Assembly: GCF_000820845.2 (NCBI RefSeq)
Contig: NZ_CBXV010000001.1
Location: 1-64,000 of the forward strand
DNA: 64,000 bases
Reading direction: 5' to 3'
Origin: Pyrinomonas methylaliphatogenes
GTDB taxonomy: Bacteria; Acidobacteriota; Blastocatellia; Pyrinomonadales; Pyrinomonadaceae
Each line of letters opens with the position of its first letter. Position 1 is the stretch's first letter. Positions 4,443 through 31,445 of the stretch are shown here, one piece after another. Made by a program: the position numbers and the translations under genes. Below the pieces are notes generated by a model. The model saw only the letters and a program-made list of their open reading frames with translations, was not told where the DNA came from and made no database searches.

Positions 4443-8915
<4,473 letters not shown>

Positions 8916-30249: not shown

Positions 30250-30283
30250 TAAGTCCCAAAGTTTAATAAGTCCCAAAGTTTAA
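30250..30283. repeat. 17-bp perfect tandem repeat (two units)
   Basis: TAAGTCCCAAAGTTTAA is repeated twice in immediate tandem, just upstream of the -35 of the siderophore receptor promoter. The rest of the stretch up to 30560 shows no gene I can support. Confidence 0.85.
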
Positions 30284-30580
30284 TGGGAATGGTCGGCGCG
30301 TTGATGCCGAGCGAATCGATTAGAAAGGTCGGACTCTTCAAATGTTCAGTGTGAGAGGCGAGGCAATGGATACCGACGAATCGTTGCGACTCTTCATCAG
30401 TTGCGGGGTGCGCGCATCTATTGACGCCCGAGAGCGGCGGCGGACCGCAAATCCCAAGGTTCGATGAGGGGCGTGCGCGCGGCATCGGGCACGGCAACGA
30501 TAGAGCGCAAATTCCGGGGATCGAGGAGAGGCTTCGCGACTATCCGCATAAAATATAAACAAACAGTATCTTTTTGTAAC

Positions 30581-30772
30581 ATGTTCGACATGAAACTCTC
30601 CGTTTGGGCGAGAAAGAACGGCGTCAGTTACAGGACGGCTTGGCGCTTGTGCAAAGAGGGCTACATAAAGGGCCATCAAATGCCGACCGGAACGATCATC
30701 GTCATTGAAGACGAAAAAGAGAGGAGTCTCAGGCGCTCATCACTTGCTCGTCGTGTAGTTATGTTGATGTAG
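30581..30772 (+). pseudogene. IS607 tnpA (serine resolvase) N-terminal remnant
   Basis: The frame reads MFDMKLSVWARKNGVSYRTA, then WRLCKEGYIKGHQMPTGTII and a few more residues. This is the MerR-like helix-turn-helix start of IS607 resolvases, nearly word for word in the YRTAW and KGxQxPxGTIIV segments. It should continue into a serine recombinase domain, but after EDEKER the sequence becomes unrelated and stops. About 50 of an expected 200 or so residues remain. A 14-base unit is tandemly duplicated at the break (about 30757-30785). Confidence 0.85.
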
Positions 30773-30797
30773 TTATGTTGATGAAGAGAACAGAAGG

Positions 30798-31145
30798 GTG
30801 AGAGATCAGTTTGAGTGCCGAGTTTGTCGAAAGAATCTCCATGCTGACGTGAACGCCGCCAGAAACCTCAAGGAACGTTTTCTTGCGGGATGGGCAGTTT
30901 CGCGCGGCGGTAAGGAGCAAGCCCTCAGGCGACAGGTTAACGTATCAATCGCGAACCTATCGTCTGCGCGGTATCGGAGCCTGTGGAGTAAGGGGGCGCA
31001 GCTTACTCGCCCGAAACCACTTATTTTCGGGTGGTTTTGGGTGATAGCTTCGAACCCGAGGTATGGGCAAATCCCGCCTAAGGAATATTTGTTCATGCTA
31101 AAGGATGTAGTGCCGAGCTCCGAGACAAATTCCGAAATTCGGTAA
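30798..31145 (+). pseudogene. TnpB C-terminal remnant
   Basis: The frame begins RDQFECRVCRKNLHADVNAA followed by RNLKERFLAGW. The pattern F-x-C-x2-C-x4-H-A-D-x-N-A-A-R-N is the last zinc-ribbon half and RuvC-III end of TnpB/IS605-OrfB. The first CxxC pair and all the rest of the nuclease are missing. The frame beyond about 30960 overlaps the structured right end and has no protein homology I recognise. Confidence 0.85.
30987..31042 (+). other. Double hairpin at the TnpB 3' end (omega-RNA-like)
   Basis: GAGTAAG at 30987-30993 pairs with CTTACTC at 31003-31009. CCGAAACCAC at 31012-31021 pairs with GTGGTTTTGG at 31032-31041, with one G-T pair. Two adjacent stems right after a TnpB C-terminus are what the omega-RNA scaffold of active elements looks like. 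Because the nuclease is gone, function here is doubtful. Confidence 0.45.
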
Positions 31146-31445
31146 ACAGCTTTCTTGCGAAAGCGCGCTTCCGAGACGCCACAGCGCGCGTCGAGACAAA
31201 TTCCGAATTCGGTAAACAGCTTTCTTGGGGTGTTGGGGGCTTCAGCCTCTTTCAGAGACAAGCAGCTTCCGAGATTCGGTAAACAATTAGCAGCATTGCC
31301 GCTCGATGGCCTCTCTCATCGCGACAAACTCACGCGATGGCGCTTCGCGTCTGGCGGCTACTGGCATATTGCCGCTCGATGGCCTCTCTCATCGCGACAA
31401 ACCGCTTCTGGAGCGCGGTAAACAGCCCCGCCGCTTCGAGCGGCG
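31122..31445. repeat. Cluster of short spaced direct repeats
   Basis: A 35-36-nt sequence (GAGACAAATTCCGAA...CTTTCTTG) occurs at 31122-31157 and 31193-31227. A second, unrelated 35-nt sequence (ATTGCCGCTCGATGGC...GACAAAC) occurs at 31295-31329 and 31368-31402. Partial copies of the TTCGGTAAACA core occur near 31275 and 31416. Offsets are 71 and 73 nt. No gene is supported between the IS remnant and the peptidase stop at 31456. Confidence 0.8.

Follow-up and report, generated by a model that had tools for sequence, protein, structure and literature searches.

IS607, IS1535 and ISC1926 share a TnpA with an N-terminal DNA-binding domain and a TnpB placed downstream, and elements of this family create no target duplication on insertion, which takes place over a short core that matches, and carry an inverted motif near both ends (PMC6188088, in the excerpts available). 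These traits are also those of the locus of Pyrinomonas methylaliphatogenes described here (contig NZ_CBXV010000001.1 of a genome that is 99.5% complete, in 16 contigs). It differs from the described family members in being a miniature, devoid of the catalytic TnpA domain and of the TnpB nuclease, and in having its core within TCT, whereas the published IS607 insertions occurred at a GG core (PMC6188088).

Reduced elements are known from the IS605 type. The PATEs of Haloquadratum are IS605-type elements reduced to their ends, and one of them, HqIRS71, keeps part of the C-terminal transposase coding region (PMC3119063). The Pyrinomonas miniature resembles them by the absence of transposase, a palindrome near the end, the absence of target duplication, a kept TnpB C-terminal region and an origin by core deletion; unlike them, it is derived from IS607 (i.e., from a serine recombinase element) and not from IS605, and it keeps an open frame for the DNA-binding domain. 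It can be seen as the IS607 counterpart of the IS605-derived PATEs. With Type I prokaryotic MITEs (PMC10969869), it has in common its short length, long stretches shared with an autonomous IS and, probably, movement in trans, but it has neither their usual terminal inverted repeats nor a target duplication. Finally, the RNAs found at the right end of IS607 elements with TnpB (ISXfa1, PMC10711439; the RAGATH-18 type, PMC11061315) are structured and located immediately upstream of this end, as would be the predicted stems of the miniature, which differs from them by having no Rfam match and no nuclease. A further difference from the RAGATH-18 type, as far as the excerpts of PMC11061315 describe it, is that the structure overlaps the TnpB frame in L075, a full-length relative presented below. 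In the excerpts of the literature covered (including PMC6188088, PMC11061315, PMC9956272, PMC10711439, PMC3119063, PMC10969869, PMC4058570 and PMC3718332), we found no IS607 miniature of the same form, which does not show that none has been published. The miniatures reported here, derived from IS607, come from two distant genomes, and their ends, core and empty site are defined.

Composition and decay of the window copy

The window, i.e., the whole stretch of 64,000 nucleotides that was analysed (positions 1 to 64,000 of the contig), carries in 5' to 3' order a left end, a TnpA DNA-binding domain of about 48 codons, a TnpB zinc-ribbon tail, two strong hairpins and a right end (Table 1). The initial annotation had described an IS607-type element reduced to a resolvase head, a TnpB tail and hairpins, and the NF033518 and PF07282 matches together with the folds of the stems bear this out; the head does meet the tail within about 30 bases. 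The span proposed at that time, 30560-31060, designates the right locus with limits that are slightly short, the second copy of the element giving 30532-31106.

Table 1. Features of the miniature element in the window
Feature	Positions	Strand	Remarks
Miniature IS607-family element, window copy	30532..31106	+	575 bp; limits from the second-copy alignment
Left end, CTTCGCGACTATCC...	30532..30589	+	terminus aligns with TCTTAGCGAC of L075, a full-length relative
TnpA N-terminal winged-helix DNA-binding domain	30590..30721	+	NF033518 positions 2-50 of 187
Deletion junction (zone)	30722..30737	+	about 1.44 kb of the parent type absent; common to both copies
TnpB C-terminal remnant	30738..31030	+	PF07282 and NF038280 matches; frameshifted in the window copy
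14-bp tandem duplication, 2 x TGTAGTTATGTTGA	30754..30781	+	window copy only
Stem-loop B, at least 13 bp, omega-RNA-like	31007..31044	+	L075: same place, similar size, other sequence
Stem-loop C at the right end	31055..31104	+	the end motif ATTTGTYYATG forms its 3' arm
Truncated or mutated right terminus	31106..31110	+	ends GGAT; C8 copy and L075 read GGATACTCT

The head is a piece of an IS607 TnpA, and its DNA-binding domain is related to that of IS607. Scored with the peptide of the second copy (on contig C8), the NF033518 match has an E-value of 6.6e-5 and stays under the 110-bit cut-off, as expected of a fragment; a sequence search for a solved structure of the head gave no match. The frame starts at an ATG at 30581 or 30590 and continues to 30772, and the head is 71% identical to that of L075 and 54-57% identical to the TnpA found on contig C4 of the same genome. 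The catalytic serine-recombinase domain is deleted in both copies, and because of this we class the element as an IS607 derivative and not as an autonomous member of the family.

The open head frame could also be read as a function: it would make a TnpA limited to its DNA-binding domain, which would bind the ends and repress transposition, in the way of a KP-like repressor derivative. Indeed, the head is the DNA-binding domain and its frame is open in both copies; it is the binding part, because TnpA without residues 1-50 does not bind DNA (PMC6188088). We nevertheless judge such a repressor very unlikely. The two copies differ by 3 substitutions in the head region (1 residue among the first 47), and by 7 in all over the aligned sites, numbers that are too small for a selection test on the two kept frames, and the independent miniature described below kept only about 9 head codons. 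Moreover, multiple TnpA dimers assemble cooperatively on IS607 ends (PMC6188088), so a DNA-binding domain alone may bind poorly.

On the other side of the junction, the TnpB tail of the C8 copy matches PF07282 above the cut-off (E 1.9e-7) as well as the NCBIfam IS607_TnpB model, while that of the window copy reaches 23.8 bits for a PF07282 cut-off of 26.3. The remnant keeps the CxxC...CxxC zinc ribbon and a DVNAARN motif, in a frame that is intact in the C8 copy only, the 14-bp duplication disrupting the zinc-ribbon frame of the window copy. Compared with C8 and L075, the window copy also lacks the terminal ACTCT together with the core, and one pair of the outer 3-bp helix of stem C is broken in it (C-A) but formed in the two others. 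Since its right terminus differs, its core is unreadable; several offsets were compared by eye, none gave an equal dinucleotide at both ends, and we took this as a loss of the right end. The window copy, the worse preserved of the two, has decayed and is probably no longer mobile.

The second copy and its insertion site

A DNA search of the whole genome with the element returned one further copy (G000:C8:418305-418871), 567 bp long from TCT to TCT; an exact search with the right-end pattern likewise found two places, which are the two known copies. The C8 copy is 96% identical to the window over 30532-31106 and unrelated outside in a DNA search of the genome, with 7 substitutions over 559 aligned sites, a single indel of 14 bases and small indels that amount to four bases. 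The deletion junction is identical in both copies, and their flanks are unrelated up to the ends.

The C8 copy splits the open reading frame of a gene for which homologues were found in 5 other genomes among the 119 of the family that were searched. The insertion point was read from the 2 of these 5 homologues that match best on both sides: they read ...VQNFASDVKPD... and ...VQNFAGDVTW..., and the two C8 halves read ...VQNFASE and DVQPEK.... From this comparison, the original empty site would have been TTCAGACGTG, and AGA (TCT in the orientation of the element) is all that both C8 junctions have in common with it. The insertion is precise, with a target duplication of at most 3 bp, as in the IS607 family; its core lies within TCT and not at the GG of IS607. 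TCT also borders both ends of the L075 element and of the miniature found in the genome of L075.

Two copies at unrelated sites, alike in their ends and in their internal deletion, correspond to what defines non-autonomous elements of the MITE or PATE kind. The single junction present in two copies and the precise C8 insertion indicate that the deletion therefore preceded a transposition, for which TnpA would have acted in trans. A dead remnant, copied by segmental duplication or gene conversion without any mobility, would agree with the decay of the window copy and with a copy number of two, but not with flanks that are unrelated right up to the ends nor with a precise insertion inside a gene, and it appears to us scarcely credible. 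We hence consider it very probable that the locus is a non-autonomous miniature element of the IS607 family, which transposed after its deletion with TnpA supplied in trans. Mobilisation in trans, one of the two fates that the initial annotation had envisaged, is in this way well supported by the shared junction, the unrelated flanks, the precise insertion in a gene and the ends of a full-length relative.

Following this reading, a full IS607 element of about 2 kb, with TnpA and TnpB, would have lost about 1.44 kb internally, a length judged against the 2010-bp element of the parent type. The deletion would have spared the two ends, the DNA-binding domain of TnpA and the tail of TnpB with its omega-RNA-like 3' region. 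At least one move would have followed, TnpA presumably acting on the ends in trans, by a serine-recombinase exchange over the short matching core within TCT and without target duplication, if the mechanism is that of IS607; the window copy would have decayed since. Mobility seems to have been modest, because there are two copies in this genome and none in the 118 other genomes of the family, which were covered by a DNA search.

Full-length relatives and the possible source of the transposase

Among the 77 loci returned by a scan of species genomes with the DNA-binding domain, L075 is the nearest full-length relative: it measures 2010 bp, encodes TnpA and TnpB, ends in the same way and is carried by a Thermodesulfobacteriota MAG (contig JAUQQL010000020.1). 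Its left end reads [TCT]TAGCGAC, for [TCT]TCGCGAC in the miniature, and its right end GGGATAC[TCT], for AGGATAC[TCT] in the C8 copy. Of the 60 positions aligned at the right ends, about 49 are identical, which none of 1000 shuffles equalled; the left ends present a short similarity, the local score of which is not significant alone (180 of 1000 shuffles as good). We do not claim that L075 is active, because one stop divides its TnpB into two ORFs of the same frame and its contig has a coverage of 1.7 according to the title.

Searching the genome of L075 (G511) with the full element revealed, besides the element itself, a 552-bp copy (G511:C43:17978-18529) in which three segments of the parent (3-95, 984-1084 and 1658-2010) are joined and TCT bounds both ends. 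Its DNA-binding domain is lost after about 9 codons, and for this reason the deletion is independent of the Pyrinomonas one. Here also, the 3' breakpoint lies just upstream of the zinc ribbon, and the tail frame is open to the right end. We do not count this common breakpoint as a sign of selection, because the observation was made post hoc on two cases and a third partial copy in G511 is cut elsewhere. Since a decayed fragment without recognisable ends adjoins the miniature, the deletion in G511 looks partly like plain decay.

In the Pyrinomonas genome, we found no full-length parent, whether by DNA search with the whole element, by the right-end pattern or by TnpA and TnpB searches. The full IS607 elements that the initial annotation had proposed to look for amount to one, on C4, which belongs to another IS607 lineage and carries, intact, the single TnpA of the genome above the family cut-off. 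The C4 element and the miniature have GGGAYATTTGTCYATG in common at the right end, which none of 1000 shuffles matched, and the C4 left end has no significant similarity to that of the miniature by local score (126 of 1000 shuffles). The mover would then have been either a cognate TnpA that has been lost or the distant C4 TnpA, cross-acting. In another genus of the same family, locus L054 is a pseudogene related to the head and shows similarity at the left end, so the element lineage was present in the family before. TnpB zinc ribbons occur at 11 places in the Pyrinomonas genome, both miniatures included, and none of the TnpB has a right end similar to that of the miniature.

The C4 element itself (L016, G000:C4:335500-340500) encodes a TnpA of 184 aa and a TnpB, and it splits an ORF which we take to resemble a membrane glycosyltransferase; by eye, GTTG is common to both of its junctions. 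Closely similar TnpB genes without an IS607 TnpA, presumably of the IS1341 type, occupy at least 5 places in the same genome (G000:C6:19030-19272, C1:185745-185987, C6:263689-263931, C1:331119-331361 and C7:5-175). In a genome of the same genus (G102), the TnpB tails L027 and L034, on C19 and C7, are of a longer type that is related; they have the right end GTCTATAGAAGGGGGAACTA in common and lie near contig edges.

The 3' stems and occurrence elsewhere

The two strong stems noted at the outset are real when their folds are compared with shuffles, and the structured 3' end is well kept in the C8 copy and less well in the window copy. Folds of the last 100 nt have z-scores of -5.5 in the window copy, -7.3 in C8 and -9.7 in L075, and C8 and L075 display the same layout in these 100 nt, B followed by C around the right-end motif. 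For folds of 207 nt and 200 nt, z was -3.7 and -5.1, and none of 200 shuffles did as well. The G511 miniature, considered by itself, has a 3' region whose fold does not stand out from shuffles (z -0.9, 34 of 200). RNAalifold was applied to L075, the G511 miniature and C8, the window copy being omitted as nearly identical to C8. It predicts 32 pairs, 7 of them changed on both sides; 95.8% of cells pair, a share that falls to 33-47% on sliding the 3' partners, and none of 500 shuffles attains the score. One of the five measures, the further pair types, is not above shuffles (102 of 500). With three sequences, this covariation supports the stems without proving them.

Rfam gives no match at the gathering score in the element, the sole match in the window being a tRNA at 658-730, and one match in the element at E<=10 was taken as chance. 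A group I intron (IStron) or another known RNA was rejected, as there is no Rfam match; none was obtained either for RAGATH-18 or any other described RNA family, in a release that may not contain RAGATH-18. At E<=1, none was found in loci L002, L016, L025, L027 and L034.

The hairpins could be something else than an RNA feature: stem C would consist of two TnpA-binding motifs in inverted orientation, and stem B would terminate transcription. The motif ATTTGTYYATG, which forms the 3' arm of stem C, recurs on the bottom strand of the left end of L075 (20 of 1000 shuffles as good), and stem B is one of the terminator-like sites (2 found, 1.3 expected). On the other hand, the end of the TnpB frame of L075 (stop at 5936) includes stem B and almost the whole of stem C, stem B lacks a T-run in L075, and its pairing is kept with different letters. 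We therefore find this reading rather unlikely for the two stems, although stem C may act as DNA as well, because its motif recurs at the L075 left end.

The second fate proposed in the initial annotation was a retained guide RNA. The 3' end would still make an omega-RNA, used by a TnpB in trans, for instance for cutting the empty donor site and so favouring retention. The 7 of 32 pairs changed on both sides, a position in agreement with the right-end RNA (reRNA) of ISXfa1, about 150 nt long (PMC10711439), and the block from zinc ribbon to right end that the G511 miniature also keeps speak for it. Against it stand a covariation drawn from three independent sequences, the lack in the genome of a TnpB with a similar right end, the shuffle-like fold of the G511 3' region, the broken stem pair and lost terminus of the window copy, and a promoter-like site that is single, weak and on the opposite strand. 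We regard a retained guide RNA as improbable. We give equally little credence to a broader version, where IS607 miniatures would be double parasites that keep the ends recognised by TnpA plus a complete omega-RNA block: the TnpA of a full-length relative would move the miniature, and its TnpB, with the RNA of the miniature, would cut the emptied donor site and so keep the copy. The G511 miniature, which is cut nearly alike upstream of the zinc ribbon and resides in one genome with a full-length element, is as this version predicts. If the 3' block were a working omega-RNA, guide RNAs could travel without the nuclease gene, which would bear on how guide-RNA-dependent systems separate from their transposons. 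Most likely, the miniature is an ordinary genomic hitchhiker, mobilised in trans, that keeps the folded RNA end of its parent.

Beyond the family, a sample of the phylum gave matches of 32-36 bp near E 1e-3 in 3 of 395 other genomes, which were set aside as chance. The TnpB tail of the C8 copy has no match in the genome contig collection (84,980 species by its description) nor in phages; it matches 17 plasmid records, all below 60% identity, and two viral-contig loci, and the L075 tail has no match in viral contigs. The viral contig IMGVR_UViG_3300005573_000104 (L069, L070 and L150) bears an IS607 element whose TnpB belongs to the same clade and, about 19 kb from it, a second, tail-only match. 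Among 108 loci with a related DNA-binding domain (77 + 31), no other head-to-tail fusion closer than 1153 bp was seen; 33 of them have a zinc ribbon within 3.5 kb downstream, and many others end at a contig edge. This search misses miniatures without the DNA-binding domain, such as that of G511, because it is anchored on this domain.

In the window, the element has repeats on both sides. Upstream, a short direct repeat, AAGTCCCAAAGTTTAAT, occurs twice in tandem at 30252-30289. The stretch 31120-31424, just downstream, contains a 29-nt unit that ends in CGGTAAACA and is present four times in imperfect form, as well as an exact direct repeat of 35 nt, located at 31295-31329 and 31368-31402.
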